Below, piece by piece: positions 1 through 44,429 of a DNA stretch of 64,000 nucleotides (positions within the stretch are counted from its first letter, which is position 1; each line of letters begins with the position of its first letter). The notes under the pieces are model-generated. The model had not been told where the DNA came from. It was given only the letters and a program-made list of their open reading frames with translations, and made no database searches. The translations under genes were made by a program, and so were the position numbers. Source of the DNA: Phlegmacium glaucopus (lineage: Eukaryota > Basidiomycota > Agaricomycetes > Agaricales > Cortinariaceae); the NCBI GenBank assembly GCA_015039465.1, contig MU130379.1:472342-536341 (forward strand), read 5' to 3'.

Positions 1-1493
1 GCAAACTAGCATAGAAACCAGGTAGTAAAGTTCTTGCCGGGGAAATACCTGCGTAGTTGATGTAGAGGGTAATACATGTTCCGAAACAGTAACAACAACA
101 CCGATACCTGGGTGTTCAGAAGGGGAGTCGGTAGATAGAACGGTAGGGAGCGAGGACCTAGAGTGAGTCAGGGGATAGGAGTGAGTAGATGGAGAATAGA
201 ATAGTAAGTGACGGTTTTGGTAGTAAGTGCGCCATGGACTTCGGAAGGGTGGGAGAAATACTGTTAAATCCTTCAGGTCCTCCTAGTGCTGATTCGTCCT
301 TAACGTCTACTTAGTCGTCGTCTCCTAATAAGAGCGTCTCACAGTTCACAATAGTTCCGACGCGCTGTACCCTGGTACCCGTTCATCACAAAAGAGCCCT
401 TGTTCCGACGCGGAAAGTTCACAACTGAGTCCTGGAAAGTGTAAAAACTGTACTGGTGTACTGATACCTCAACTATATAAAAACGATAACCTGATACATG
501 TGACGGAAGAGAAGAAAAGAGAGCGTGAAACTGTGAAACGTCTAAAAAAATAACAAGGAAGAAGAAAAGGTAACAAGAAAAGAAGAGCGTCGACAGGAGA
601 GAAATAGAAAGAAGGAAACTGTCGCGCATGAAACAAAGAAAATAACAAAATGTATCGGAGTAGGAATCCCATATTTATGACGAGAAAACATGGTCCTATC
701 CATCAAGTCAAGTTAAGTAAGAATGGGGGGTGAAAGTAGTAGAGTCACCTTAAGGTCACTTAAGGAGGGAGTTCAAGCGAAAAAGTCGGAAATTGACAGT
801 TAGATAGGGGTGACAGTTAATGATATCAGAACGACTTCTGAGGGAGAATAAGAAGGAGTAGGAGAAGGAATTGGGGAGACTCAAGCGAAAAAGTCAGGAA
901 ATGACAGTTGGGTGACAGTTGACGATATCAGAATGACTTCTGAGAAGGAGTAAGTAGGAGTAGAGAGGAGTGGAGATGAGAACGAGGGATGGATTCACAC
1001 TATGTTCAGTTCCAATGTGGAAGGGATTTGTTTGTTGTCCCTCCGAAAACTGAATTTCTGATCAGGTAACGAGAGACCAACCACAAAATAATGTGTTGTT
1101 GTTTGTTGTTAAATATTGCGAATGGTAGTAAGAAGTAAAGAGAAGGGATGAGGAAGGAAGGGAAAGAAAAGGGAAAGGGAAGGGTGGGTGATGAGATCGG
1201 TAAATCGGCAACGCGCGTTAAGGTAGAGTCCCCCACGGTGACTATAGTCCCGTGGGGGCAAAAGCCGATATTTTCCGAAGGAAAAGCGAGGCTCGTCCAC
1301 CAATCAACACCAAATTTGAACAAATGAGATTTGATTGGTGGCACTCCTTGGTCGTAGTCGGCTGAGTCGGCGCGGGCTCGCAGAGTCTCAAGCGAGGAGA
1401 CACTGTAGTACAGAGTCTGTAGGAAACGCAAAAAATTGGGAGTGGCTTCACGCTCTTGCCGAGAAACGGATGGCAGAGAACGTGAAGTCCACA
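1..1493. other. Segment in plain reverse (mirror) order
   Basis: The plain complement of bases 1-1116, read left to right, matches the plus-strand S repeat at 43098-44150 (first 60 bases: 53 identical by eye). Bases 1207-1493 read backwards match 6321-6510 and 6700-6760. Reversing 1-1493 without complementing makes the sequence run without a break into base 1494, recreating the S repeat across the join (...CGATCAAACG + CGAGCCGATG...). An inversion would give the reverse complement, which is not what is seen. All coding elsewhere, including the adjacent recombinase gene, reads normally, so this block is the anomaly. It starts exactly at the window edge. ORFs inside it are meaningless. Confidence 0.93.
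1121..1493. repeat. Left copy of the YR1 element repeat (mirror order)
   Basis: Read backwards, this block matches the sequence upstream of the gag gene of the recombinase element: first 6321-6510, then the part around 6700-6760 containing GGAATTGCGCGCAA. The two copies therefore lie on both sides of the gag-RT-RH-YR genes in direct orientation, as expected for the split direct repeats of Ngaro/PAT-like elements. The assignment depends on undoing the mirror order. Confidence 0.7.
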
Positions 1494-1804: not shown

Positions 1805-2794
1805 TCAATGTGGTGAGCCGGAGCCATAAAGAAGAGAAGCGAGAAGAACTGGATGTCGACGAATATAAATTTGGAATGCTGGAGACGACCATCGACCAAT
1901 GGCCTGGATGATGTGAGGAGGGAGGCCGGCCTCTGCGAGTGCAGTAGCACCTCCAGCACGTAGGGAATGTCCGCCGACGTTGCCAGGGAAGTGCTTTTGA
2001 AGTAGGTGGAGGAACCAAGATCGAGTAGGAACTGTTCCATCTTCTTTCAGTAACAGTTCTGCACGGAGGGGGAAAAGTTGGTTGTGTAAAGCGAGATAGG
2101 ATGAAAAAGGAGCCCATGCGTCATCGTCGAGATCGGTAGCTTGAATGATAACTTGACTCCCTTCGAAAAAACGGTCAGCTTTGTGACCAGGTAGTAGAAA
2201 CTGAAAAGATTTAGGATTGATTTGGACTGTACTCCGCATAATGATTTTGCGATAGTCTTGTAATCTTCTTTGGTCAGGCCAAGTTAACTCTCCTAAGCGC
2301 ATTAACCCATGGAAGCCAGTGAAGAGAATAGCGAGGAAGAGAGTATTGTTGAAGGATGATGAAGATTTGTAATATCGACAGACGTTCGCAAGTTCTAATC
2401 GCGTCAGTGGTCGTTTGCGTGAAGTGGCGGAAGGAAACATTTTTCGGCAGCCTTCGAGAGTCTTGGAAACAAGCCAATGACGTCGGTGCATTCTAACATC
2501 AGGGAAGAAAGGTTCGAGCTGGTTGCAAACACCTGAGAGGTAAGAAGCGACGGATCTGGGTTTAATGTGATGCAACATATAGACCGCATAAAAGCTGAGG
2601 GTGTTAGGTGTGGGTTCAATTGGAAAGGAGTGAGTAGAGCAGAAATCAAAGTAAGACGAAACAGCAGATGAATAAGAAGAGATGGAACTGGGTTCGACAG
2701 CACATGCAATGGCAATTGCACGTTCGCGAAGCAAACACTCACAGGTCCAGGTCTCTCGATGAGAATGCCTGGACGAGGAGGGTTTTCTGTTCAT
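1805..2794 (-). CDS. Tyrosine recombinase of a YR retrotransposon
   Basis: This 329-residue ORF encodes a lambda-integrase-type tyrosine recombinase, the integration enzyme of DIRS/Ngaro-like retroelements. It would join a circular cDNA to the target by site-specific strand exchange rather than by a DDE integrase. The catalytic set is complete: R166 in MRLGEL, K205 in GHKADRF, H276 and R279 in GGHSLRAGG, W302 in GRWSS and nucleophile Y310 in FQIYIRRH. Residues 25-140 look like the helical core-binding domain. The start ATG overlaps the stop of the preceding RNase H frame (ATGA at 2791-2794), typical of termination-reinitiation. No stops or frameshifts are present, so this is the best preserved gene of the element. 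The S1 repeat starts just downstream. Confidence 0.9.
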   Translation of the reverse strand: MNRKPSSSRHSHRETWTCECLLRERAIAIACAVEPSSISSYSSAVSSYFDFCSTHSFPIEPTPNTLSFYAVYMLHHIKPRSVASYLSGVCNQLEPFFPDVRMHRRHWLVSKTLEGCRKMFPSATSRKRPLTRLELANVCRYYKSSSSFNNTLFLAILFTGFHGLMRLGELTWPDQRRLQDYRKIIMRSTVQINPKSFQFLLPGHKADRFFEGSQVIIQATDLDDDAWAPFSSYLALHNQLFPLRAELLLKEDGTVPTRSWFLHLLQKHFPGNVGGHSLRAGGATALAEAGLPPHIIQAIGRWSSPAFQIYIRRHPVLLASLLYGSGSPH

Positions 2795-3556
2795 AACTGA
2801 GTCTCCCCCAGCGAGAAACGAGGGGGTGAAAATTTAGCAACTACTAAACCTGGGTGAAGCTGACGGGCAGCTATATTGTTGAGGCGAGAGAGAGCATCAG
2901 CAACTTTATTTTCACTCCGAGGAATATGGAAGACTCGTAGTTGAATCTTGGAGCTGATGAGAAGGTTGATGGCGGTGATGAGGATTGGATTGTAAGCTGG
3001 TAAGGCATGAAGCGTGTTGAACATGTCGAAAGTGTTGGAGCTGTCGGTAAGGATAGCTAGTCGGTGAGGCTTTGGGGAGGTTGATCCGCATACATGGTTC
3101 AGAGCAGATAAAATGGTTAGAGCTTCGAAAAAGAAAATGCCGTTTTGAGTGGAAGGAGGAACAGCACACGAAAAACCCTCACAGGTTTTCGGTGACCAGT
3201 ATCCCATGCCTGTCGGACAGGCGTCACAAAGGAACGTGTCATGTGCTTCTGACCTGGTCCATTCCTGAGATTCAATCATATGGACACCGTCTGAATCGCT
3301 GATGTGGGTCGCTAACCAGCAAAGCTCATTACAAATGGTGTTATTGATCGAAAGTTTCTGGAAAGGTTGGGAACCACATCGCATCTTCTTATATACACTC
3401 GATAGGCCTGGTCGGAGTAAAGGGAAAACATTCAATGCCCAGTTAACCCAACCAGCTAGTCGTTGGAAATCTTTGAGCGAACAACGTTGACGTGGATTAG
3501 CGAAGGCATAGATAGCTGCTACGAGTTCAGCCTTGGCGTCACACGGCATTGTAATC
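2791..3556 (-). CDS. RNase H region of the YR1 retrotransposon pol (5' end cut by MITE M1)
   Basis: This frame encodes the RT connection and RNase H domain of the recombinase retroelement. RNase H degrades the RNA strand during cDNA synthesis. Acidic motifs are visible in order: FLCDACPTGMGYW, FFFEALTILSAL, LAILTDSSNTFD and the C-terminal HIPRSENKVADALSR. The frame is continuous with the RT but is separated from it by MITE M1 at 3557-3926. M1 and its duplicated target lie between ...ITM and PCDAK, so removing them would reconnect the frame. The real coding part begins near 3556; the longer open frame running up to 3687 reads into the MITE. The stop overlaps the recombinase start. Confidence 0.85.
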
Positions 3557-3926
3557 AGTACTTTACCCTCCCCCACACATTCCGAGCGGGTCCGAGCAGG
3601 TCTGAGCAAGTCCGAGCAGGTCCGAGCAATCCGACCAAATTCCGACCAAATTCCGAGCAAATTCCGAGCAATCCGACCAAATTCCAACCAACTTCTGACC
3701 TCATTTAGGGTTAGGTTAAGGTTTGGTTAGAGTCTATTTAGGGTTAGGATTAAGGTTTATTTAAGAGGTTAGGGCAGTATATTGATGCTAGGTGGTTATA
3801 ATGAATTTGATGTAAAATTGGTCGGAATATGGTTGGATTCTGCTCGGATTCTGCTCGGATTCTGCTCGGAGTTTGCTCGGACCTGCTCGGACCTGCTCGG
3901 AATGTGTGGGGGAGAGTAAAGACCTC
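3557..3926. mobile_element. MITE M1 (CTTTAC/CCCCCAC family), inserted in YR1 pol
   Basis: This 370-bp non-autonomous element starts AGTACTTTACCCTCCCCCAC and ends in the inverted GTGGGGGAGAGTAAAGACCT. It is flanked by the duplication CATTGTAATC (3547-3556 and 3927-3936). The arms consist of inverted arrays of TCCGAGCAGG-like and TCCGACCAAAT-like motifs. The centre (about 3703-3772) is a run of TTAGGG/TTAGGTTAAGG variants. A 9-10 bp duplication fits Mutator-like elements, but no transposase is present to prove this. Confidence 0.85.
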
Positions 3927-5001
3927 CATTGTAATCGTCATAAGGTTTGGGTCAACGTCGAACCCGATGATCTGGAGGGGAGCTCCTGACACTTGCTTAT
4001 GTTCCTCATGAGGAATCCCAAGTTCGTCGAATAATTGTAAAAGGTGGGCTTGCTTCGTCGGCATGCACTTCTTGTAAGGAGAGTAGAAGGTTAGGTGACT
4101 AGCGAACTCCCAAGAAAAAGCATCATCGACGTAAGCGAAAAGATTGAGTATGAATTTGATAAAGATGGCGATCCAGAGTGCAAGTCCAAAGAATGTACCC
4201 CAGAGCCGACCAGCTCCTCGATTTCCAAAATTGTTATTGTTATCGACGTGATGGAAACCGAAGATAGTGACAACTTGACGCAATTGCCATAACGGATGCA
4301 TTGGTAACCGTCGATAGGCTTGTGAGACGTCCGTTTTAAATAAGACAAGGGGAACATCACCGTGAAGTCTCTTTACCCTGATAAGCGCTTTACCGAGGAC
4401 ATGGAGGGTATCCAGGTGAATACTCGCATCGTTGGGGGAGATGTAGGAGTTCGGTGAATGCTCCCCTGCTGAATGATCAACTACGAGGCGAAATTTGTCT
4501 GAGTGAGGTTTTGGAACAACCCATAGAGGGATCATCGTCATGCCAGGTAATAGCGTTGTGAAGGGATCTGAAAAGCGACCGAGCCTTATTTCTTCATCTC
4601 TCTGTTCTCTCATGAACTGAATATGTTCTGAGCTCTTTATTCCTTGCAGAACAGCGTTGTCTACAATAGCGGGTGCGTTTGAGCCCAGAGTAACAGCCCA
4701 TGGCCAAAAACCAACTCTGAGGCCCTTGCACACAGAATTAACTAGCAGCCGGTTAGGATGGGTTTCCAAAAAGTCCTGGAAATGGTTGACGTTGATAGGA
4801 GTTGTAATGCGGAAAAGGTGAGGATGGGAATTGATTGTACTCCAGTTTGCAGTGCTAAGGAGTTCGTTACAAGGTGGATCAGGTACTGGTGACGCGGTTT
4901 CGGTAACTGAAGCTGTAGTGACACAAGATAAATCATCATCTGCCCACACGTACTCACGAACAAACCGCGGACGGTGTTCCCAGCACACGAGTGAAGAATA
5001 T
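3927..5001 (-). CDS. Reverse transcriptase of the YR1 retrotransposon
   Basis: This is the RT part of the tyrosine-recombinase retroelement. Recognisable blocks are VVPKPHSDKFRLVVDHSAG, VLFKTDVSQAYRRLPMH (first catalytic Asp) and the AYVDDAFSWEF box carrying the YVDD catalytic pair, followed by the thumb/connection LIGIPHEE-like stretch. The order RT, RNase H, recombinase on one strand, without protease or DDE integrase, is the DIRS/Ngaro arrangement. The frame extends upstream as a long open frame overlapping gag, but the conserved part starts near the gag stop at 5002. It is cut at its 3' end by MITE M1 and is otherwise uninterrupted. Confidence 0.85.
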
Positions 5002-6186
5002 TTATTTCTTGCTGGAGTTACAATCGCTTGCGACATGATTCCCACTGGAGCATTTGGAACACACGTGCAAGTAGTTGCAGTTGGCGGCTGTATTTGGGCA
5101 CCTGTTCTCATTCCATCTCTGGCAGGCAGCACTACGTCGACGGTTTGTGGATTGTTTCTGCTTGGGCTCAGAGAGCTGACTTGAGATGAGGTTTGTTGGG
5201 TTGTGAACCCATTGGATCTGCAAGTCTGCGAACTCAGCAAAATTGGACAGCTCAAGGTCGCGCCGCTGAGCCGCTCTGAGTCGGACAGCTCTGTCATAGT
5301 TGATGACGCGGCTGTGAAATTGGGCTGGCAAGGATGCGAAGTATCACTGAATGTGCTTGCCGTAGAGCTGCAATTCCTGTTTTCTGTGCTCGAAGACAAA
5401 GGGGATGGCATCGACCATGCAGTCCCAGGCGATAACCCAGTCCCCATGGGTTTTGACTGATTTCGCTGGTGTGGATGAGTCGTGGAGTAATTCAATGTTT
5501 TTCCCAAGTTCAATGGTGTCTCTGGTTTTGAAAGATACTGTGTAGATGTTGGAGAATACGTGATCAAGGTCGACGGCATTCCTGCTAAGCAAGTTAAGCC
5601 ACTCCACTTGAGGGAATTGTGGGATAGGCTTGCTGCAGTTGAGCAGGGAGGATCGTGCTCGTTTGACATCGCGAGAGAAATTCTCGAGCAGAGATTGGGT
5701 TTTCTGTAGTGACGGAGAAAGGAATGTCGCTGCGCCTTGGTCTGCTTCTTTGAGGACGTTCCATGGTAACGCTTTGAAGTCAAGGTGTGTCTTCCTAGCA
5801 TATTCGTCATCTTCATCCTCTGATGTCGGGGAACGAGGTCGCTTAGGCGCTCTAACAGGGCAGGTCTCTGGTGCTGGTGACTCGCCGACATCATCTTGTT
5901 CGTTTGGTGGAGATTCTGCAAGTTGTTGTCGCACATCATCGACTCTCTCAATGTTTCCTCTACGGTACCGCCGAAGTTCTCGAGCATGTCGAAATATGGC
6001 TCGTAGGTTGAGAGGAAGACATCTTCGGTGACATTATCATGGGGGATGGATCGCTGAAGGAGCACAGATGCCTTGGGTTTAGAGATTTTTCCTTGTCAAC
6101 GACTCGTCTTTGGTTCTCAGAGAATTCTGGTGTATTTGACGAGGTGGCACTTGGTCTCGTAAAGCTGCTCGACGACGTTTCGCCAT
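5002..6186 (-). pseudogene. gag-like ORF of YR1 (one nonsense codon and a frame break)
   Basis: The first ORF of the recombinase element encodes a putative nucleocapsid protein. A basic/acidic stretch (APKRPRSPTSEDEDDEY) is followed by a helical region and a C-terminal Cys/His cluster (CQRWNENRCPN..CNYLHVCSKC) resembling zinc fingers of fungal YR-element Gag proteins. A TGA at about 5345 splits the frame between GKHIQ and YFASLP. Near the N-terminus the reading passes between two frames around 5935, and the ATG-led frame from 6186 meets a TAA early. The start is therefore uncertain. The gene is upstream of RT and slightly overlaps its long open frame. Confidence 0.65.
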
Positions 6187-6319
6187 GTTGGGACATGATA
6201 CAAATTATGACACAGATTCTTTGTGGATATGAGGGACGAAAGATATAAGCAGAAAATTGCTGAACGCTACAAGTACAGGACAGTAGGTAAACACGATAAA
6301 CAATGGACAGAAAGAATGG

Positions 6320-6880
6320 CACACCTGAAGTGCAAGAGACGGTAGGCAAAGAGCCGTTCTCGCACTTCGGTGAGGGTTAAAAAACGCAAAGGATGTCTGA
6401 GACATGATGTCACAGAGGAGCGAACTCTGAGACGCTCCGGCGCGGCTGAGTCGGCTGATGCTGGTTCCTCACGGTGGTTAGTTTAGAGTAAACAAGTTTA
6501 AACCACAATTAAATGAGGCTTCAATAACATTCTAAAAAAAGAAAAGACTAACAGAAAAGTGCAAACTACTTATATAATCATTAGATTTCTTAGACTTGGT
6601 AGGTTAGCAAATAGATAAAGTTTGGTAAAATCATTAACAAGCTATTCAATAATAAATTATAATGATGAAAAATAAATCCCATAAAAATGATGACTAATCA
6701 CTTGCTCGCACGAGATGCCTGTGTTAGCCGAAAAAAGGGGTGCCCTGAAACCAGAGGCACTCCTCGTGATGGAATTGCGCGCAAAAAGGGACTCTTTCCG
6801 GGAGGAAAGCTACCACGGGCGAGGAGGGAGGGTTAGAGAAATAATGGATAATGATACAACAACACTACGAGCATGGGAAC
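6320..6880 (-). repeat. Right copy of the YR1 split direct repeat / promoter region
   Basis: 6321-6510 and about 6700-6800 match the mirror block 1121-1493 when that block is read backwards. Because this copy lies upstream of gag on the minus strand, it probably holds the element's promoter and 5' leader. A GC-rich stretch at 6420-6470 (GGCGCGGCTGAGTCGG) is common to both copies. About 190 bp between the two matching blocks (6520-6700) is AT-rich and unmatched. Confidence 0.65.
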
Positions 6881-11206: not shown

Positions 11207-14200
11207 ATGGCACCTAAAACCAGGGGCGGAAGCTCTCGAGGCCGTCGTGGCCAGCCATCCACTCAACACCAGCAACTGCAGCCAGCCACAGAGCCTGATA
11301 CCAGTGCTCAGGCTGCTGTTCCTACTCCCCCAGACCCTGTAACTCCCATTCGTCGCACAGCACTGTTTCATGTGCCTCCATATAATCCACGCCCTATCCC
11401 AGCCTGACCCTCATCTCCAGATGAGGAGGAGTTTGATTTCGATGAAGCAGATGCCATTCCAATCACTGCCCCTCCAGCGGCTGGTGCTTTGGGGTCACCT
11501 GTAAAGTGTGCACGTGCTGTGGGGGGAAATCAGGAGAGCCTTCATCGGAAAGGAGATCTTGAGGTTTGGGATGAAAGTGATGAGGATATAATAAGTATGT
11601 GATTGTCCTTGGTAATATAATCAATGTACTAATATTATGAACATAGATGCTGCATGAAAAATCTGGCGATCAAATGTGTATGATCATTATATCACCACTG
11701 TCAACCGCATATGCGACCCCTTCTCTCACCAGCCTCTAAAGATTGAATTTGTATTTACCTGTAAGACCCACCCTGAGAACCACCAACAACCACTGCGCCG
11801 TGATCGGAATAAGACTGGAGATGGAACTACCAAGTTTTTGAAGGATGTTAGGATGTGTGAGGAGAAGCAGGGTATCTATCAGCAACAACCTGCATCCAGA
11901 TCTATCCCTTATACCCCTGAAACTCACCGTGCTCTTATTGCTTTGCGCTGTGCAAAGCATTCCCGCCCAATCAATTCAATTCTTGACGACGACTACCGAA
12001 CTGAAGTTGAAATGCTTCGTCCTGGGACTCCTATACCTCATCCAACAACTGTACAACATGACCTTGTCAGTATATATATCCATATGTCAACCTTTGTCAT
12101 GAATTATTTTATGGTAACATTAATATTTCTCCACTCCTTTTTCAAGATGCTGAAAAATATTCCCAGACACTTGGTACTGCTATTCATATTGCACTTGATG
12201 GATGGACAAGTCCCCTTGTTACTTCCTACCTTTGGCTTGTTGTTATCTGGTATGCAAATGGTACAATAAATCGTGCAGTCTTGGAATTTATTCGGTATGT
12301 ATTTCATTAATACATATATATTATTCTAATATTTTTTTTAGTCTTACCTGTAGTCATACAGGAGAATATTTGGCAGAAGTTACAGCTGAATGTCTCAAAC
12401 GCTATGGTTTGGATAAATTGGTAACAGACATTTCTGAGTTATGCTTGCTATTGCTAATATATAATAGATTTTGGGATTATGTATGGACAATGCTAGCAAT
12501 TGTAATCACCTTGCTAGTATTCTCTCAACTTGTATCCCACACTTTGGAGGAACACATGCAAGGCTTCGTTGTCTTGCCCATATCATCAATCTTATTGCAA
12601 AAGCAAGTTTTATTTTATTTTTACCTGCTAGCTACTTTGATTTATATTGTCTGGTTAGATATTTTTATCATTTTTCTTCAAGAAACCCAAGCACAAGAAA
12701 TCAACAACTCCCATTCCATCTGATGACCCAATTGTTGATGATGATATAGCAGCTGTTGAGGAGGCAGAGTATGATGCCCAGGTAGAACAGGATGATGAAG
12801 GGCAAATTGCACATGATGAGCCAACAGTTCAGTCTATTCATGATCAAGCTATTGAACTTATGAGAGAACAGAGGGTTGAAATGACAGTGAATGAGGAGGA
12901 ATTAGCTCTGAACTTATTTCCCAAGGTGAGTTTATTTATTTATTTTGTCTTTTAATCTATTAAAAATCCTGTATTAGGTTGCAGGGCTTGCTCGTCGAAT
13001 TCAGGATTCTTCACCTCTCAAGGAAAAGTTTANNNNNNNNNNNNNNNNNNNNNNNNNNNNNNNNNNNNNNNNNNNNNNNNNNNNNNNNNNNNNNNNNNNN
13101 NNNNNNNNNNNNNNNNNNNNNNNNNNNNNNNNNNNNNNNNNNNNNNNNNNNNNNNNNNNNNNNNNNNNNNNNNNNNNNNNNNNNNNNNNNNNNNNNNNNN
13201 NNNNNNNNNNNNNNNNNNNNNNNNNNNNNNNNNNNNNNNNNNNNNNNNNNNNNNNNNNNNNNNNNNNNNNNNNNNNNNNNNNNNNNNNNNNNNNNNNNNN
13301 NNNNNNNNNNNNNNNNNNNNNNNNNNNNNNNNNNNNNNNNNNNNNNNNNNNNNNNNNNNNNNNNNNNNNNNNNNNNNNNNNNNNNNNNNNNNNNNNNNNN
13401 NNNNNNNNNNNNNNNNNNNNNNNNNNNNNNNNNNNNNNNNNNNNNNNNNNNNNNNNNNNNNNNNNNNNNNNNNNNNNNNNNNNNNNNNNNNNNNNNNNNN
13501 NNNNNNNNNNNNNNNNNNNNNNNNNNNNNNNNNNNNNNNNNNNNNNNNNNNNNNNNNNNNNNNNNNNNNNNNNNNNNNNNNNNNNNNNNNNNNNNNNNNN
13601 NNNNNNNNNNNNNNNNNNNNNNNNNNNNNNNNNNNNNNNNNNNNNNNNNNNNNNNNNNNNNNNNNNNNNNNNNNNNNNNNNNNNNNNNNNNNNNNNNNNN
13701 NNNNNNNNNNNNNNNNNNNNNNNNNNNNNNNNNNGGATCAGCCAGAGAGCTCACAGGTTCAGAAGAAGGACAAGAGTCGCAAAGGGAAATTGGTATATTT
13801 CATCTCTTGATCATATTGTTACCTTTAACTCACATCACCTAGGAGTTTTCAAAGTGGGCAACCAACCCTGATCAAGCACAGGAGAAACATGGATATGATC
13901 ATATCGAAACCTACCTCAGTGAGCCCACACCTACCAAAGAATCTATTACTGCAGCTGGTGGTTATCTCAATTACTAAACCACTGCTCTCAAGACACGCCC
14001 TTCAGTTGCTCAGATGGCACTGGACTACATTTCTGCACCTGGTATTTCTAATATTATCTTCATGATTTTATTAAACCATATATACAGCAACATCTGTGGA
14101 TGCAGAACGTGCATTTTCAACGGGTCGTCGCCAAGTAAACTTCATGCAACATAATATGAGTTCTCAGACCTTCCAATCACAAATGGCTGTTGGTTCATGG

Positions 14201-15734: not shown

Positions 15735-16552
15735 TCCAAGGACACCTCAGGACAACCTAGGACAGCATAGATAAAATTTTGAGTGTCACACATTTGCTCA
15801 GGACACCTTTAGTGTATCCTGGTGCATTGACCATCTGGATTAAATCACATCAAGAGGCCCTGGGAGTCCCTTAGAATTTATGAATTTTGCTAGACAATAT
15901 TTAACCGCCGCGTCCAGAAAAGTATTTTGCAATTTTCTCAATAAGGAGAGCTGCTATTAATATAATTTAAACATATTCAGGGTCCTAAAACAATTCTCTA
16001 CCATCTTTAAAAAATTTCCTTTTTTGGAATTTATGTAATCTACCCTGACCCAGCACCATATGCTTGAAATCATGCTTATCTGTGATCATGTGACCAATGG
16101 TCTGTGCACCATCCAAAAGATATATAAACCACCCACAATTTTGTTTTCTTATTTCCTACTTCCCCCAGTATTATAGTACTAGTATATAACTTTGTATCAC
16201 TATTTTATTATTATTTTATTACTAGTATATATGATGTTTAAAATAATTGAATATTATTTTATTATATTATTATTATTCTGTTGTGTGAGACTATTCAAAT
16301 ATCTGGTTCTAGCATCAGATATAAAGGGACTAAGGCTGCCTCAGGGATGCTCTCAGGTTGCCTCAGGACACTCTTAGGTTGCCCCAGGACATACCCAGGA
16401 CATACCTAGGACACCCTCTGAGTTTTCAAAAAAAAAGACATTGGAATAGTACCTTCTTAGAGCACTCTTGGAGCTCAAAGAGCTCTGGGGGTGTCTTAGA
16501 GTGTTTTAGAGTGTCCTTAGACTGTCCTAGGGCAAAAGTGTTTTTCCTGATG
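15735..16552. repeat. R2 repeat and companion CAGGACA-rich unit
   Basis: 15780-16110 is repeated inverted at 21735-22215 (shared blocks: GGGTCCTAAAACAATTCTCTACC, GCGGTTAAA, GACCATCTGGATTAAATC). 15735-15790 and 16335-16550 consist of degenerate CTCAGGACA/CCTAGGACA motifs, and the latter ends in the CATCAGGAAAAACAC-type terminus. Probably one composite non-autonomous element. No coding capacity is visible. Confidence 0.6.
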
Positions 16553-19632: not shown

Positions 19633-21458
19633 TATTGTGCACCAATACTGATTGGTAGCATGAGAAGAAAGCTTAAAAGTTGCCATCATGAAAGTAAGTG
19701 GGCTTTGAATTCATTTACCTATTTTGGAAGCAGCCCTGAATCGCGTTCCTGGTCAATAAAATCATTCGTTCAACATTATCATCCTCATTGCTCATCATAT
19801 CCTCAATGTCTGTCACCATGCTCTCCATCGTTTACACTATCGACATGCTCTTAAACATCTACCATCCATTTGAGGACTTTACACTCCCCCACATTGTCCA
19901 GCCGGAATTCCACCAGACTGACCGGAGTCTGGCGGACTCCAGAAAAGTCTGGTCAGAGTCCGGTGAGAGTCCGGTGGAAGTACAAAATATGCCTGTATCC
20001 CCTCCTAACCTAAGAATGCGCTACCACATGGACAGAAAATATCCCCATCCCTAAATATTAATCCTAAGCCCTAAGCCTAAGCCCTAAATCTAAATATAAC
20101 CCTAAGCCTAACCTCTAAATCTAAATATAACCCTAAATTCCATCAAAAGTCCAGCAGATGTCCAGTGGAAGTCCACTGGGCTGTGACCAGACATACAGTC
20201 CAGGCATTTTTCTACTTTCACCAGACTCTCACTGGACTCTCACTGGACTTTTGGCAGTCCGGCCGAGTCTGGCTGAACAATGTGGGGGACTGTAAAGTAC
20301 ACATCCATTTGTTCCTTGGCTAGCAATACAACAAAGTGATCAATCTACTATTTGCATTGGTCATCAGCTCGCGTTTGATTGTATCTTCAGCCCATCATTT
20401 CGAGAACAGCCCCTTTATGGATGCATCAGCTACATCTCCCAGTATGTCAGAGGCTTTGTCATTGTCATTGTGGCAGCTGGCTATGGACCCACAACTTTTT
20501 GCTTCAGCCATCTATCTTGCCATTGCTCTTGGATTGCATTCAGTCCCCTATCCTCAATTATCTACCTCTTATCTTATCATTCACTGCCAAAACCATCATT
20601 CATGCAGTATATGAAGCCTTCCCATCCTCTTTATGACAACTTAGGAAGTCCAGGAGGATCATGACTAAGCAGGAATTGCAGATGAATCAGCAGCAGAGGA
20701 TTATTCTCACAGTGTGTCAAGTGTTATCAAGGCTGCACGACATGGGATCATGGGCAAGTAGTATTTTCTCGGGAACAAGGCTGCACCTTTCAAGTGTTGA
20801 CTCAGGACCTTTCACATTTTTGACATGACCACATGCCTATGGAGTTGATATATTTTTCCTATTGGACTATGTACACTGCCTTCTTTTCTTTTCTCTTGCA
20901 CTTTGACACTTTACAGATTTTTTTATTGTTCCTTCTTCTTTTCCATGTTCTTTTCTTCTTGCAGCTGTCCTCTCTTTATCTTTCTTCCTTTGACAGCACG
21001 TACTTATTGTTCTACATAGCCTCATCCTTAGGGTATAAATACTGCTCTTTTGTACCAGGATAGGTAGTTCCCTTCATTTCAGTTCTTAGTCCCCAACAGT
21101 CATCATCTCAGTGGAATTCCAGTGAATTCCTCCCTCAAGTTCGCTTTTTTACCCCTTTACTGTCAATCTTTCTCTCTGCTGCTATAGTCTTACTGAAGAC
21201 TCTATCATCCACATCCTCATCCTCTCTCTTCGCTTTTTCAGCCCTTCATCTGTCACTGTCCCCTACTGTCGACAGCTATAGTCTCACCAAAGACTCTTTC
21301 ATATTCATCCTCATCCTCCTCTACTCTCTTCTAACCAAGTGTGCTTACTAGTCTCTGGTTACACCTTCCCTAAACAAACACAGGGGGATATTATGACCTA
21401 AAGTCTGGTCCAGTTCCTTCTGGTTGGTGTTTTATAACAACACAAACAACAATTTATA
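19633..21458 (+). mobile_element. S3: family-S solo-LTR-like repeat, with MITE M3 inside
   Basis: Starts TATTGTGCACCAATACTG and ends ACAACAATTTATA, like S2. Without M3 it is about 1.4 kb. It is inserted in the Gypsy A reverse transcriptase: coding sense resumes at 21459 with VFKTN. The flanking 4-mers are ACAT and GTGT, which differ only by transitions. It carries the TATA region GGGTATAAATACTGCTC at about 21030. Confidence 0.8.
19872..20301. mobile_element. MITE M3 (430 bp), inserted in S3
   Basis: Starts GAGGACTTTACACTCCCCCA and ends TGGGGGACTGTAAAGTACA. The target duplication is CATCCATTT (19863-19871 and 20302-20310), which also appears once in the other S copies. Arms are arrays of TCCGGTGGAAGT / GAGTCCGGTC motifs. 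The centre (about 20050-20140) is CCCTAAGCCTAA / CCCTAAATCTAAATATAA, a telomere-like core. It is the same subfamily as M4 in opposite orientation. Confidence 0.9.
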
Positions 21459-31065: not shown

Positions 31066-32717
31066 TATAAATCACTGTTTGTGTTGTTATAAACACTAAC
31101 CAGAGAGCAGTGGACCAGTCTTTAGGTCAAGAGACTCCCTGTTATTCATTTAGGGAAGGCTTAGCCTTAGACTTGTAACACACAGAGGTAGGGGGAAAGA
31201 ATAGAGATGAGAAGGATGAGGATGAAGGTCTTGGAAGGTGACTGAGGTAGAGGATGAGGATGAGGATGGGTAAGAAAGAGTCTTCAGTAAGACTATAGCA
31301 GTTGACAGTAGAGGACAGTGACAGTAAGGGACTGAAAAAGCAAACTTAGAGGGAGGAATTCACTGGAATTCCACTGAGAGGATGACTGTTGGGGAGTAAG
31401 AATGAATTGGGAGAAACTACCTATCCTAATACAAAAGAGCAGTATTTATACCCTAAGGATGAGGCTATGTAAAACAATAAAAAGAAACAAAGTACGCGCT
31501 GTCAAAGGAAGAAAGATAAAGAGAGGACAGCTGCAAGAAGAAAAGAACAATGGAAAAGAAGAAGGAACAATAAAAAAATCTGTAAAGTGTCAAAGTGCGA
31601 GAGACAAGAAGAGAAGGCAGTGTACATAGTCCAATAGCAAAAATATATCAACTCCATAGGCGTGTGGTCATGTCAAAAATGTGAAAGGTCCTGAGTCAAC
31701 ACTTGAAAGGCGCATCCTTGTTCCCGAGAAAACACTACTTGCCCATGATCCCATGTCGCGCAGCCTTGATAACACTTGACACACTGCGAGAATAATCCTC
31801 TGCTGCTGATTCATCTGCAATTCCTGCTTAGTTGTGATCCTCCTGGACTTCCTAAGTTGTCATAAAGAGGGTGGGAAGGCTTCATGTACCACGTGAATGA
31901 TGGTTTCGGCAGTGAATGATAAGATAAGAGGTAGATAATCAAGGATAGGGGACTGAGTGAGATCCAGGAGCAAGGGATGGCAAGATAGATGGCTGAGGGG
32001 AAGACTTGTGGGTCCATAGTGTATGAATTGGTATGAGTTTGTAAGGGGGTAGTAGCTTTAGACTTAGATTAAATGAATGAATGAACTTTGAGTGAAAGAT
32101 GATAATCATTCGGTCTGTAATTCTAAGAGTTTATATACTACGAAAGTGTGGCATGGTGGCCTAGGAACTACAATGGTGCCACAAGCCTTCAATATGGAAA
32201 TGGAAAGAGGCCACAGGCCACCTCGCTTGGTCCATGATTCTACGAGCTACCTACAAGTTGTCTGAGTTTAGTAATTAAGTGAAATAAGAAAAACAATGAA
32301 AGAAAGAAACAGAAAGAAAGAAAATATCCTAACTATGGCCTTGTGTAGCTGGCCTTACTTCCCCACAATAGCCACAACAACAATGACAAAGCCTTTTACA
32401 TAATGGGAGATGTAGTTGATGCATCCATAAAGGGGCTGCTCTTGAAATGATGGACCAAAGATATGATCAAACACAAGCCGATGACCGATGCAAATAGTAG
32501 ATTGATCGCTTTGTTGGATCACTAACCAAGGAACAAAGGGATGGTAGATGCTTAGGAGCATGTCAATAGTGAAAATGATGGAGAGCATAGTGTGAGACAT
32601 TGAGAGTATGATGAGCAATGAGGGTGATAACGTTGAATGAATGATTTGTTGACCAGGAACGCAATTCAGGGCTTTAAGCTTTCTTCTCATGCTACCAATC
32701 AGTATTGGTGTGCGATA
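31066..32717 (-). mobile_element. S4: family-S repeat on the minus strand, with solo LTR inside
   Basis: On the minus strand it starts TATCGCACACCAATACTG (32717) and ends AGTGATTTATA (31066). Flanking 4-mers ATGC and GCGC differ by two transitions. Without the LTR at 32020-32367 it is about 1.3 kb. A TATA region GGTATAAATACTGC lies at about 31447-31460 (minus). It interrupts Gypsy B ORF3. Confidence 0.8.
32020..32367. mobile_element. Solo LTR 2 (348 bp), inserted in S4
   Basis: TGTATGAATTGG ... TTCCCCACA, flanked by ATAG (32016-32019 and 32368-32371). The other S copies show the uninterrupted target GTCCATAGCCACAAC. It contains TATATACTACG at about 32132. Confidence 0.8.
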
Positions 32718-34089
32718 GCGCTCACCGACTTTCCTCTTCTCCCCCTTCTTCCACTGAAAACGACATCTTTTCTAATGTTGAATATTTCAACTCACACAAA
32801 CTCGACTGCATACTTAAAAATGAAAACAACCTCAAATCAATCAAAGACATCCTTTGGAACTGTAGCGACTTGAACTGTCAATTTTGCCATTATTTTGAAA
32901 CCAAACAGACAATACGATGGCTAGAGAAAGAAGTCAAATAACAACAAATAACAACAAACCTTCTCTTTGACCACATGAGAGAAGGTGGTCTCATCTTGAA
33001 GCTCACCCCATTGATCAGACACCATCAAAAACATCAATGGTCTCCAGTCGCTTTCAAGAACACCCCTCAAAGGACAAATATACCAGTCTCCGATACTCCT
33101 TCCCCAACTCCATCATCTGCAAAATCCATTCCAATCGTCCCTTTTGACACAATTGTTCTTCCTGTCACTCCCCATGTTTTTATTTCCAAAATCTCAACCC
33201 GATATTCTACTGCTTCAGAAGGCGACGGCTCCAAAGACAGTCCTATTTGCATCCCCAATGACAAAGATTATCAACAACTTCAAACTCTTAACACCATGCA
33301 AACAATTCAAAACCATTGTGTCCTCTGCAATGAACCCGGTCATACTCTTAAACATTGTCAGCTTGCAAAGAGGCTCTACAGTTGTTGAAACCAGGAGTTT
33401 TCAACAGTCTAGCAGAGGGGTAATGTTACAATTATACATGCTGCATACACACCATTTTCATTTTCTTTTCTATTATCACACATGCACACTCCATGCAATG
33501 TTCATTGTTTCATCAACATGCTGTTATGGTTTACTTTTCATACATGTGTCGAACACATGTTGTACATACCCTTACCTCCAGTACTTTTCTGTCCCCCACC
33601 AGATCTGATCAGATCTGATCAGAATTGGTCAGAACTACTCAGATCTGATCAGATCTGATCAGAATCTGACCAGAACCGCTCAGAATCTGAGCAGTTCTGA
33701 GCAGTTCTGACCAATTCTGGTCAGATTCTGAGCAGATCTGAGCAGATCTGAGTAGTTCTGACCAATTCTGATCAGATCTGATCAGAATTGCAATACTTAT
33801 AAGTCAATTCCTACTAACTCATATTTTTTCTAAAATTTCTAACATATTAATTTAAATTTAAATTTAAATGGATTAATTATACATTTTGAGGTGGGATTAG
33901 TTACTAGTACATTAGAATAACAAAATACATTAGTTGATATCAGAGAAATGAAATCAAAATACTAAGTGGTCAAAATGAGTGGGTAGAGTGGGTGTGAAAT
34001 GAATGGGCAGGTGGTAGAAAGGGGGGGGGATGGGGGCAAAAAGGGGGTGATGGGTGCAAAACGGGGGTGATGGGCGTAAAACGGGTGTA

Positions 34090-34380
34090 TGTGGGTGGTC
34101 GAAACGGACGACGACGAGGAGGCATCGCCGTCGTCGTTCGTCGTCCGTCCGTCATCATCGTCGTTGTCCGTCATCGTCGTCGTTGTCCGTTGTCGTTGTC
34201 CGTTGTCGTCATCGTTGTCCGTTGTCGTCATCGTTGTCCGTTGTCGTCATCGTTGTCCGTTGTTCGTTGTCCGTTGTCGTTGTCCGTTGTCGTCATCGTT
34301 GTCCGTTGTCGTCATCGTCGTTTGTCGTCATCGTTGTCGTTTGTCGTTGTTGTCGTGGCTTGTGGTTTGTCATCATTCGA
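34090..34380. repeat. CGT/CGTTGTC-type simple repeat
   Basis: Long run of CGTCGT, CGTTGTCC and GTCGTCATCGTT motifs. Open frames across it in three phases are an artefact of period-3 composition. Confidence 0.9.
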
Positions 34381-34392
34381 AAACTAATTAAA

Positions 34393-34930
34393 AAAACCCC
34401 CCTGGTGAAAGGGGGGGGTGGTGATGGTGTGTCGAGGTTGAGGCATGGTAGTAGTGGGGATCTGGTGGTAATTAGTAAGGTANNNNNNNNNNNNNNNNNN
34501 NNNNNNNNNNNNNNNNNNNNNNNNNNNNNNNNNNNNNNNNNNNNNNNNNNNNNNNNNNNNNNNNNNNNNNNNNNNNNNNNNNNNNNNNNNNNNNNNNNNN
34601 NNNNNNNNNNNNNNNNNNNNNNNNNNNNTGTACGTGTGTACGCGTCGTGTGTCGTCGTCGTGCGTGTCGTACGTCGTACATGGCCTAATACAACATGTTA
34701 GTAGTCAATTAACATAAAATGAAGTAAAAAAATACCCCCCCTGGTGAGGGGGGGTTACCGTTGCACGTCGTCATCGTCGTAGTGTCGTACATTGTTGTTG
34801 TGGTGTCGTACGTTGTTGTTGTTGCTCGCTATCGTTGTCGTATGTCGTACATGACTATTGTAAGTCGTTAGTAATGAATTAAGATAGAATAAAATAAAAA
34901 ATACCCCCCCTCACCAGGGGGGGTTACCGT
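34393..34930. repeat. Three C7/G7 hairpins in a diverged tandem unit
   Basis: At about 34396, 34733 and 34904 the sequence has C6-8, then TGGTGA or TCACCA, then G6-8, each preceded by an A-rich tract. Two are followed by GTTACCGTTG. Surrounding blocks (GTCGTACATG, then AATTAA) repeat with them, so they belong to a tandem unit. Confidence 0.7.
34483..34628. other. Assembly gap (146 N)
   Basis: Gap within the repetitive centre of MITE M5, flanked by simple repeats and G/C hairpins. Confidence 1.
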
Positions 34931-35828
34931 TGTTACATGGCTGTCGTCGTTGTGCTGCCACTGTCGTTCGTTGCCGTTATTCGTTGCCGTTATTCGTTGC
35001 TGTTGTTGTGTAGTGGGTATTAGCATATAATGGGGGTCAATAAAATAATCGACTTACCTTTTTATGACCACAGACGATGCTGTGCATCGTCTGTGGTCGT
35101 CGTTACTGGCCGTGTGACGGTGTGAGAGACAGAGAACGAAATCAACATTACTTGTGCAAGTCACATGTGATCACGTGATTACACCCCTCGCACTGAACAA
35201 AATACACGATTTTGATGGCAACAAGGTTATTGCCATCTAATCTCAATATAGTGCTACTTGACATATTACCATAATTATATTATTTCTCTAGTAAATTCAA
35301 GTGGTTCATTTGCTGATCTCACTTAATTCTGCTCGGAATCTGACCAGATTCTGCTCGGAAATGGTCAGATTCTGCTCGGAAATTGGTCAGAATTAAATCT
35401 GATTAGATCTGATCTGATCTGGTATTTCTGATCTGATCTGATCTGGTATTTCTGATCAGATCTGATCAGAATCTGGTCAGAAAAATTGGCTCTATTACTG
35501 CCATTTGGGCTTGTAAAAATTCTGACCGGAATCTGATCAGATCTGACCAATTCTGATCAGATCTGATCAGATCTGGTGGATCACAGCAAAGACCTCCTTA
35601 CCTCATGCCTTTCATTTCTTACTTTTGTATATAAACCTATGTATCTTGTACATTGTTCTGTACCTAGTCTTTAATAGACAAACTTCCTAATCTTAATCTC
35701 TCTCTAAGACAACCACTTCTTCAGACCTTAACAAGTCTGCAAAGCGCAAGTCCTCTGATTGATATTTGAACCCGACATAGTGACAACTGTTAACAATCAG
35801 TAACCCTGAATTGTTTGAAGTCATAACA

Positions 35829-41109: not shown

Positions 41110-42797
41110 GGGAACTCAAATGATTCTCAGAGGCAGCTGAGCAACAAACTTCTGAGGAGAGGGCCCAGCGAGTGGAAGAGAAAAGACTTTATGAAGAGGA
41201 GGTAGTAAGGGTCAGGGAAGAAGGGAGTCGATGAGTTGAGGAGGTTAGCAAGATGGTTGAGGAGATTACCAGACAAGTAAAGGAAGAGGCTACCCAGCGA
41301 ACTGAACAGAGAAAGGCTCACATCGAGGAGGTTGAAAGGATGAAGAACAAAGGGCACCAATGCGAAGAAGATATCTTCAAGCATGCTGAAGAAATTAAAA
41401 AAAGAGCTCAGGAAGCAATCGCAGCAGCCCTTGCTGGTAAAGAGGAAGCAGAGCGACGGTCTACCAATCTCATGGAGGAAACAGAGAAGAGGATTCAGAA
41501 AGCAGTGGAAGAGGTAAGGATAAGAGTGGAAAGGCAAGAGGGAAATCCTCACACCAAGAGGCAGCAGAGGGTTATTCAGAATTTGGAGGAGGCACCCGAC
41601 TCAGAGGCTGACATTGAAGCGGTCCAAAACTTAGTCTGGGTTCCAACTGCAGGACCATCAAATAGGGGGATGGATGAACCTTCCCTGGCGGAACACCATT
41701 CAAGGGATATGAATCAGGGGGAACCTGCGCAGACGAGCCGAGTGCACTTTGAGGTAGGTATAAATGTTATGGAGAGCAAGGTGGAGGAGATGAGTGTGAG
41801 CTCACAAAGCAATGAGAAAGAAACAGAGGAAGATGAGGAAGAAGTTGAGGAAGTGGATGAGACTGGGAAAAGGAAAGGGAGAGGTAAAGAGAAAGAGAAG
41901 CAAAATGAGAATAAGGCAAGCAACCCTTCCAGCTTTTCAAATATTTTAGCTCAGTGTTCTTCCAAAGATTCCACTACCGTGGAGATTTTCTGCACCTCGA
42001 GGAGGGGCTGTGCCAGTCAACATCCGTCTACAAAGGGATTAATCTGAGGACAGTGGTATGGCCACAGATACTTCCTCTCGTGCCGTACTACATCCACAGG
42101 AGCGTATCAAGCGGTTGAAGAAGTTGCAACAAATCTTCGGCAATGATAGAATAGATGAAGAAAGTCTGGTTGTTCACAAGAGGCCAACAAAAAGGAAACT
42201 CTTCCCTCAGTCATCCCTTCATGGGTATCGGGCTATGAGGGCAGCGAGATTGGTATGCCTATATTCTTTGGATGGAGAGCACCCATCTCATATTGCTCTA
42301 GACTGCGATCAGGGAGTCGATGAACCGGCTTATGAACATCAGCACAGATGCTGAGATTCATAAAGTTGATTGTATAACAGAGGAACAAGCTGACAATTTT
42401 GAAGAGGGCGCAGTGGGCCCCGAGCTAAATCCAATGCACCTGTACCTTGACACCAGCAAGCACACAAGGTGGAACAATGAACTAGCTGAGTTGTTTGTTG
42501 AACACCTCCAAGAAGAAGAAGAGGGGGTTACGTTCACACAAAAGGACAAAGAAATGGTTGAAGAGATGTTCCTTGCTTGTCTTGGCCAGCTTTCACGTAC
42601 GTGGCGAGAGTATTGGACCCTTAGCCCAGAAGGGCGGGAGAAGAAGAGGCGGAGGATGAGGGGGCTTGTGCGAAGGAATACCCGCAGAGTTGATGTAAGC
42701 TATTCTTTATGTGAAGACTTTGCATTCCAATATTGATGATTTATTCAAGCTCTACAATAATTGACTGGCCATATGTTACGGGAATGTGAAGAACCGG

Positions 42798-44150
42798 TGT
42801 CGTGCACCAATACTGATTGGTAGCGTGAGAACAAAGCTTAAAAGTTGCCATCATGAAAATAAGCGGACTTTGAATTCACTTACCTATTTTGGAAGCAGCC
42901 CTGAATCGCGTTCCTGGTCAACAAAATCATTCGTTCAACGTTAACATCCTCATCGCTCATCATATCCTCAATGTCTTCCACTATGTTGTCTATCATTTAC
43001 ACTATCGACATGCTCCTTAACATCTACCATCCGTTTGTCCCTTGGCTAGTGATACAACAAAGCGATCAATCTACTATTCGCATTGGTCATCGGCTCGCGT
43101 TTGATCGCATCTATGGCCCATCATTTCAAGAATGGCCCGTTTATGGATGCATCAGCTACATCTCCCATTATGTCAAAGGCTTTGTCATTGTTGTTGTGGC
43201 TATGGACCCACAAGTCTTCCCCTCAGCTATCTATCTTGCCATACCTCGCTCCTGGATCTCACTCAGTCCCCTATCCTCACTCATCTACCTCTTATCTTAT
43301 CATTCACTGCCAAAACCATCATTCACGCGGTACCTGAAGCCTTCCCACCCTCTTTATGACAATTTAGGAAGTCCAGGAGGATCACGACTAAGCAGGAATT
43401 GCAGATGAATCAGCAGCAGAGGATTATTCTCGCAGTGTGTCAAGTGTTATCAAGGCTGCGCGACATGGGACCATGGGCAAGTAGTGTTTTCTCGGGAACA
43501 AGGCTGCGCCTTTCAAGTGTTGACTCAGGACCTTTCACATTTTTGACATGACCACACGCCTATGGAGTCGATATATTTTTGCTATTGGACTATGTACACT
43601 GCCTTCCTTTCTTTTCTCTCGCACTTTGACACTTTACAGATTTTTTTATTGTTCCTTTTCTTTTCCATTGTTCTTTTCTTCTCGCAGCTGTCCTCTCTTT
43701 ATCTTTCTTCCTTTGACAGCGCGTACTTTGTTTCTTTTTATTGTTTTACATAGCCTCATCCTTAGGGTATAAATACTGCTCTTTTGTACCAGGATAGGTA
43801 GTTCAGTTCAATTCATTCTTACCCCCCACTTTCATCATCTCAGTGGAATTCCAGTGAATTCCTTCCTTAAGTTCGCTTTTTCAGTCCCTTACTGTCACTG
43901 TCCTCTACTGTCTACCGCTATAGTCTTACTGAAGACTCTTTCTTACCCATCCTCATCCTCGTCTTCTACCTCATTCATCTTCCAAGACCTTCATCCTCAT
44001 CCTCCTCACCTCTACTCTTGCTCCCTACCTCTGTGTGATACAAGTCAAGGTTACACCTTCCCTAAACGAACAACAGGGAGGCTTTTGACTTAAAGACTAG
44101 TCCATTGCTCTCTGGTTGGTGTTTATATACAACAACAACAACAATTTATA
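42798..44150 (+). mobile_element. S2: reference copy of the family-S solo-LTR-like repeat (1353 bp)
   Basis: Starts TGTCGTGCACCAATACTG, ends AACAACAATTTATA, and is flanked by CCGG (42794-42797, 44151-44154). Promoter-like layout in the second half: GGGTATAAATACTGCTCTT near 43769, then a pyrimidine-rich leader (TCATCCTCCTCACCTCTACTC). This resembles U3-R-U5 of a long LTR. No internal element with this LTR is seen in the window, so the family name is provisional. Confidence 0.8.
42905..43408 (+). CDS. Open frame inside the S repeat, conserved between copies
   Basis: An open frame of about 168 codons (145 from the ATG at 42971) reads IAFLVNKIIRSTL, MLSIIYTIDMLLNIYHPFVP, WLVIQQSDQSTIRIGHRL, GPSFQEWPVYGCISYISHYV and KGFVIVVVAMDPQVFPSA. 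Corresponding peptides are encoded by S1 (after undoing the mirror order) and S4, with many differences at third positions or as mild changes. Two hydrophobic stretches could span a membrane. S3 has a frame change. It may be an LTR-borne accessory protein or simply a low-stop region. No family recognised. Confidence 0.35.
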   Translation: MAFLVNKIIRSTLTSSSLIISSMSSTMLSIIYTIDMLLNIYHPFVPWLVIQQSDQSTIRIGHRLAFDRIYGPSFQEWPVYGCISYISHYVKGFVIVVVAMDPQVFPSAIYLAIPRSWISLSPLSSLIYLLSYHSLPKPSFTRYLKPSHPLYDNLGSPGGSRLSRNCR

Positions 44151-44429
44151 CCGGAATGGCACCACAAATCCTGGATGGAAAGCAACGACTGAAATGGTAG
44201 AACAGCTTGGTCCTGCAGGAATGAGTTCAGACGAGAGCAAAGTGGACACAACAACCAAAAAAGTGACTTACAGGATCTGTAAACGTCTTTGGCGAAGCAG
44301 TGCATGCAAGGATCACCTCCTTATGATTGATGCTGATCGTAATGTCACAAATGCCTTGGGTGGGGCCCGTGCCGGAAATCCAGCAAGAGAGCGGGTGAGG
44401 GGATCCAATGTGACAGTTAGCAAACGTGC

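Follow-up and report, generated by a model that had tools for sequence, protein, structure and literature searches.

A block of letters written backwards beside a gap in the Phlegmacium glaucopus assembly is almost certainly an assembly fault

Gap filling and contig-end extension add sequence at contig ends beside N gaps, often in repeats, and their usual faults are the choice of a wrong copy, the use of a wrong strand and the collapse of repeats. They resemble the case described here, in which about half of the mirrored blocks lie at such places, but here the letters are reversed without being complemented. RegCloser has been described as one gap-closing tool (PMC10265787). An ordinary genomic inversion likewise sets a sharp-ended segment in reversed order, but it yields the reverse complement, and the reverse complement of the block studied here does not match the normal copies. 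Mirror repeats and H-DNA motifs share with the block a symmetry of letter order on one strand, and those described for their triple-helix potential in mouse are polypyrimidine-polypurine mirror repeats (PMC9171763). The block, in contrast, is kilobase-sized and of mixed sequence, and its mirror partner lies elsewhere in the genome. Among the entries listed by a literature search we found no description of an assembly fault of this kind, and a search for this assembly likewise brought up nothing in the part of the literature that it covered.

The window, the whole 64,000-nt stretch analysed (G000:C145:472342-536341), belongs to a 60.5-Mb assembly of 259 contigs. Its base 1 directly follows an N gap, and the 3,274 bases before it (locus L001) are all N. 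The features on which the analysis turns are given below, with the repeat S numbered from base 42786 of its reference copy.

1..1493, no strand: contig-end block with its letters backwards, between the N gap before base 1 and normal sequence from 1494
1..1119, minus strand: mirrored S repeat, S313-1368 of the reference copy, by alignment to S
1120..1493, no strand: mirrored flank outside the S copy, by mirror matches to 6321-6512 and to L001
1491..1792, minus strand: rest of the same S copy, S15-315, normally written, continuous with the block only after in-place reversal
6321..6512, plus strand: normal copy of the mirrored block's far end, by mirror alignment
19637..21458, plus strand: normal S copy in two pieces (19637-19872, 20302-21458), by S alignment
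31066..32710, minus strand: normal S copy in pieces (31066-32019, 32368-32673, 32673-32710), by S alignment
42795..44153, plus strand: normal full-length S copy, within the reference stretch 42786-44160, by S alignment

The S repeat is about 1.36 kb long and carries internal repeats of about 90 bp; its start, CACCAATACTGATTGGTAGC, contains an inverted repeat, and 4-bp direct repeats were seen at the S ends in two of the copies viewed. Searched genome-wide, normal S gave 861 first-look candidates, a number that is not a verified copy number, and 40 of them were scored. Downstream of the block, a 329-aa ORF (1805-2794, minus strand) had no Pfam match; by eye it presumably resembles the tyrosine recombinase of a DIRS-like or related element. 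An Rfam scan of the window returned no match at the gathering score, and in the sequences analysed a fungal affinity is indicated by Pfam matches to Pkinase_fungal and CxC6/KDZ and by a sub-cutoff match to Rxt3.

The original prediction held that 1-1493 is reversed without complementing and proposed scoring that reversal against the other orientations. We aligned four versions of the block (forward, reverse complement, reversal and plain complement) each to the whole window, and both the claim and the proposed comparison came out in favor of the reversal, with the forward and reverse-complement versions far below; for matches in the window, the plain complement is equivalent to the reversal. 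In the alignment within the 64-kb window, the reversed block matched 44153-43098 at 89.5% over 1121 nt (1497 bits), which bears out the earlier reading of the plain complement of 1-1116 as the S repeat at 43098-44150. It also matched the S copies at 21458-20372 (85.4%, 1134 nt) and 31066-32019 (86.1%, 1019 nt), as well as 32368-32472 (95.2%). Outside S, positions 1302-1493 are the mirror of 6321-6512 (99.0% over 192 nt) and positions 1206-1305 that of L001:4537-4636 (100%). The further claim that 1207-1493, reversed, reads as 6321-6760 therefore held in part, for 6321-6512 and, at 78%, for 6693-6784.

Neither the forward nor the reverse-complement version found an S match in the window; they returned only the block itself, its internal repeats and one 41-nt hit (35.6 bits). 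A true inversion of 1-1493 was rejected, because the segment is not the reverse complement of the normal state and its reverse complement has no match to the normal copies. When the other 1.5-kb tiles of the window were reversed in the same way, none of the 39 found a mirror partner outside 1-1493 at E 1e-10, and chance or low complexity was rejected on this ground as the cause of the mirror match. At E 1e-3 the whole window gave only two further mirror matches, both weak (31 and 85 nt). The local polypurine-polypyrimidine symmetry of mirror repeats and H-DNA is also absent from the block, which is of mixed sequence and has its partners in the window some 5-44 kb away.

Reversing 1-1493 in place produced a single S alignment, 15-1368, that spans 1493/1494, and the predicted exact join of the reversed block to base 1494 was thereby recovered. 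To examine the joint, 150 + 150 nt around it were searched genome-wide as written and as corrected. The corrected junction was covered over at least 296 of 300 nt at 98-99% identity in all 40 places scored (706 candidates). The junction as written matched in full in one of the 40 scored (647 candidates), which was itself, and the other 39 matches began at base 148 or later. A 4-bp ACGC duplication had been placed at the ends of the block; read by eye, ACGC borders the restored S copy on either side and does not mark the block ends. Also by eye, CCGG stands at each end of the normal copy at 42795-44153, and the restored S copies of L014 and L017 showed no terminal 4-bp repeat. A 225-aa ORF (1006-1683) spans the false joint. 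With the block read as an assembly artefact, its ORFs, including the one across the joint, are to be discarded, in line with the proposal that every ORF in 1-1493 is spurious, and the letters at these positions are best treated as provisional.

Searched genome-wide as written, the block gave 75 first-look candidates, of which 40 were scored to yield 45 match rows including the block itself, none of these being a verified copy number. Mirrored S was present in all 19 loci L002-L020, which were picked because they match the block, and mirroring confined to this window was rejected by its presence at these other places in the genome. At many loci S ran normally up to a break and its remainder lay mirrored within a block; the breaks fell at S147 (L016), S160 (L005), S184 (L007), S247 (L014), S262 (L013), S312 (window) and S391 (L017). 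These observations bear on the suggestion that the window or the record was edited deliberately, for example as a planted test. The cleanness of the string reversal would suit such an edit, but mirrored S occurs at 19 further loci, many of them near gaps, and both block lengths and break points vary, so that we regard an edit as extremely unlikely.

Together with the window, L002-L020 make up 20 sites, and at ten of them we could fix the block end on a gap or contig end, fit the joint and compare the best ungapped S match over 160 nt before and after flipping, a test that sees nothing past the gap edge. The match rose from 83-103 to 140-155 of 160 in seven of the ten, giving clean S continuity, and more weakly in the other three (L008, 111 to 121; L015, 84 to 96; L020, 71 to 102). 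Each base by which the edge was shifted inward, over a few bases, altered the score by only about one point; the window, L015, L019 and L020 gained slightly. At L003, L010 and L018 the mirrored S stops less than 300 bases from a gap, and at L004 the gap is 682 bases from it. Breakpoints at gap edges or contig ends thus have support at the ten sites tested in this way, clearly at seven, and are without support at the six sites with no gap within 1 kb (L002, L006, L009, L011, L012 and L016), which we assume to be closed gaps. Mirroring was confined to one side of several gaps, the far side being normal at, for example, L008, L010, L013 and L017; the k-mer score and segmentation called no mirroring in L001, to the left of the window's own gap, nor at the gap at 13033-13734.

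Some of these loci carry relations between neighboring sequences. At L016, two reversed blocks lie side by side, and turning both back gives a 156-bp dovetail between the end of one and the start of the other (98% identity), an overlap of a kind that should normally have been merged. At L009 the un-reversed block and the right flank share only 77 nt at 83%. The block of L010 holds a plain complement of the left-hand sequence (1-766 / 5528-6294; 99.7%, 767 nt) that ends exactly at the gap edge, and that of L012 holds another (1-2426 / 3432-5861; 99.2%, 2430 nt). Both copies become reverse complements when the blocks are un-reversed. This is more than a reversal alone accounts for, and it points to anchors that were misplaced or a contig turned the wrong way in addition.

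Mirroring as a property of S alone was rejected on several grounds, namely S-free stretches of blocks, a mirror match at L004, contig ends and reading frames. A k-mer orientation score trained with S masked was negative across the blocks, including S-free stretches, for example the one in L015 that lies right of the gap and extends from 8113 to about 9100. In addition, window 15836-16388 has a 93.5% mirror in L004 8901-9462, a stretch that begins at the gap edge. In the window as a control, 8 of 122 tiles scored negative, two of the 122 below -5. The segmentation called window 34060-35139 mirrored, and we counted this call as a false positive: the region is a GTC-rich repeat in which short G/C-run hairpins flank an N gap of 146 bases, and near-identical copies across the genome have the same reading (98-100% in the best 12 rows, self included). 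Calls away from the S blocks at L008 8157-8888 and L018 9421-9901 may also be false positives.

We also sampled 40 contig ends regardless of S, of which 36 were readable (L030 in part) and four were all N. Every tile of L054 and L057 scored negative, as did two of the three tiles of L048, and L058 was slightly negative. The last was rejected as a mirrored end, since as written it matches well and contains a 384-aa frame. Reversed L054 (an end of C100) matched L060 at 74% over 787 nt, whereas as written it had no match among the sequences compared; its reversed frames reach 155 and 146 codons, against 79 as written, and neither of the two had a Pfam match above cut-off. L057 (an end of C150) has a frame of 259 codons reversed and 132 as written, the former matching Pkinase_fungal at the borderline (24.2 bits against a cut-off of 24.1). 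Reversed L057 and L048 found no match among the sequences compared. About two of the 36 ends chosen independently of S, L054 and L057, thus look mirrored; besides these and L048, none was seen in the other 33 readable ends. C100 and C30, of which L048 is an end, start with at least 1500 N. The S-free negative scores, the L004 mirror and these two ends indicate that the mirroring is independent of sequence content.

Such independence is also what would follow if the fault lay in the input rather than in gap handling, with a read set reversed without complementing before assembly and partly assembled into contig ends, since this would likewise mirror any content. Joins of such reads to normal contigs need common sequence, however, and the blocks join as in-place reversals at varying S positions. 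Whole mirrored contigs would be expected too; C100 could be one, its two ends reading as all N and as mirrored-looking, respectively. We consider a reversed read set very improbable.

Traces of evolution were sought in frames and in CpG decay. The longest stop-free frame was longer after reversal in seven of eight blocks, some with approximate ends (for example, 605 vs 166 in L012, 306 vs 130 in L010 and 261 vs 86 in L015); L011 is the exception, with 352 as written and 235 reversed. When the first 120 residues of reversed block frames, and of reversed frames only, were scanned against Pfam, all three scanned had a match (the reverse transcriptase family RVT_1 at 1e-21; CxC6 at 1.2e-13 and 2.9e-18). 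For CpG decay we compared 23 mirrored and seven normal S pieces in the un-reversed reading, excluding pairs with fewer than 300 aligned bases; the pairs are not independent. Changes from CpG to TpG/CpA exceeded those from GpC to GpT/ApC 4.27-fold in normal pairs, 3.63-fold in mixed pairs and 2.46-fold in mirrored pairs. Had the copies aged while mirrored, the mirrored-pair ratio would be expected at or below 1. It lies below the normal ratio but clearly above 1, and we therefore take the mirrored copies to have aged like normal DNA. Since the decay fits the un-reversed reading, evolution in the mirrored state was rejected; neither this ratio nor, L011 excepted, the frames showed any evolutionary trace of the rearrangement.

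It could still be asked whether the DNA itself is mirrored, the letter order of the chromosome having been turned round by parallel-strand copying or joining. In favor of this, the text does contain a true reversal, and mirrored copies do exist at further places. Against it stand the reversals anchored on gaps or contig ends that restore S, the frames that in seven of eight blocks are longest only after reversal, the CpG decay, the agreement of the corrected junction with ordinary copies and the dovetail overlap of the two L016 blocks; moreover, we know of no enzyme that copies in parallel. We hold a mirrored chromosome to be vanishingly improbable. The many genome sites tied to gaps argue both against this and against an edit of the window alone. 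The original prediction had called parallel-strand copying extraordinary and a file or assembly handling error or a deliberate edit likeliest; the first judgement is upheld, and the second is supported in the form of an assembly error.

The letter order is reversed, the reversal recurs elsewhere in the assembly, about half of the sites examined have it anchored on gaps or contig ends, and the sequence behaves ordinarily once turned back. Because of this anchoring and the lack of any evolutionary trace of the reversed state, the reversal most likely happened in the computer. We conclude with high confidence that the block arose as an assembly artefact, and we infer that the step at fault, in the simplest case, was contig-end extension or gap filling. 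Bases would have been added at the contig end next to the gap, stored or pasted in reversed letter order and never turned back, so that the base belonging next to the contig would now border the gap and the outermost base would adjoin the contig. There is about an even chance that an undocumented program fault wrote contig-end extensions backwards, producing kilobase-sized stretches here, and probably in other assemblies made alike, that are invisible to aligners considering two of the four orientations.

The mirrored block at 1-1493 is thus almost certainly not a real DNA feature, and reading it as an artefact removes a claim that would overturn strand chemistry. Backwards stretches, often by gaps, create false genes and hide true ones, and they could pass for species-specific sequence. 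Self-alignment with reversed letters, or a k-mer orientation score, detects such stretches cheaply and can be used on other draft genomes.
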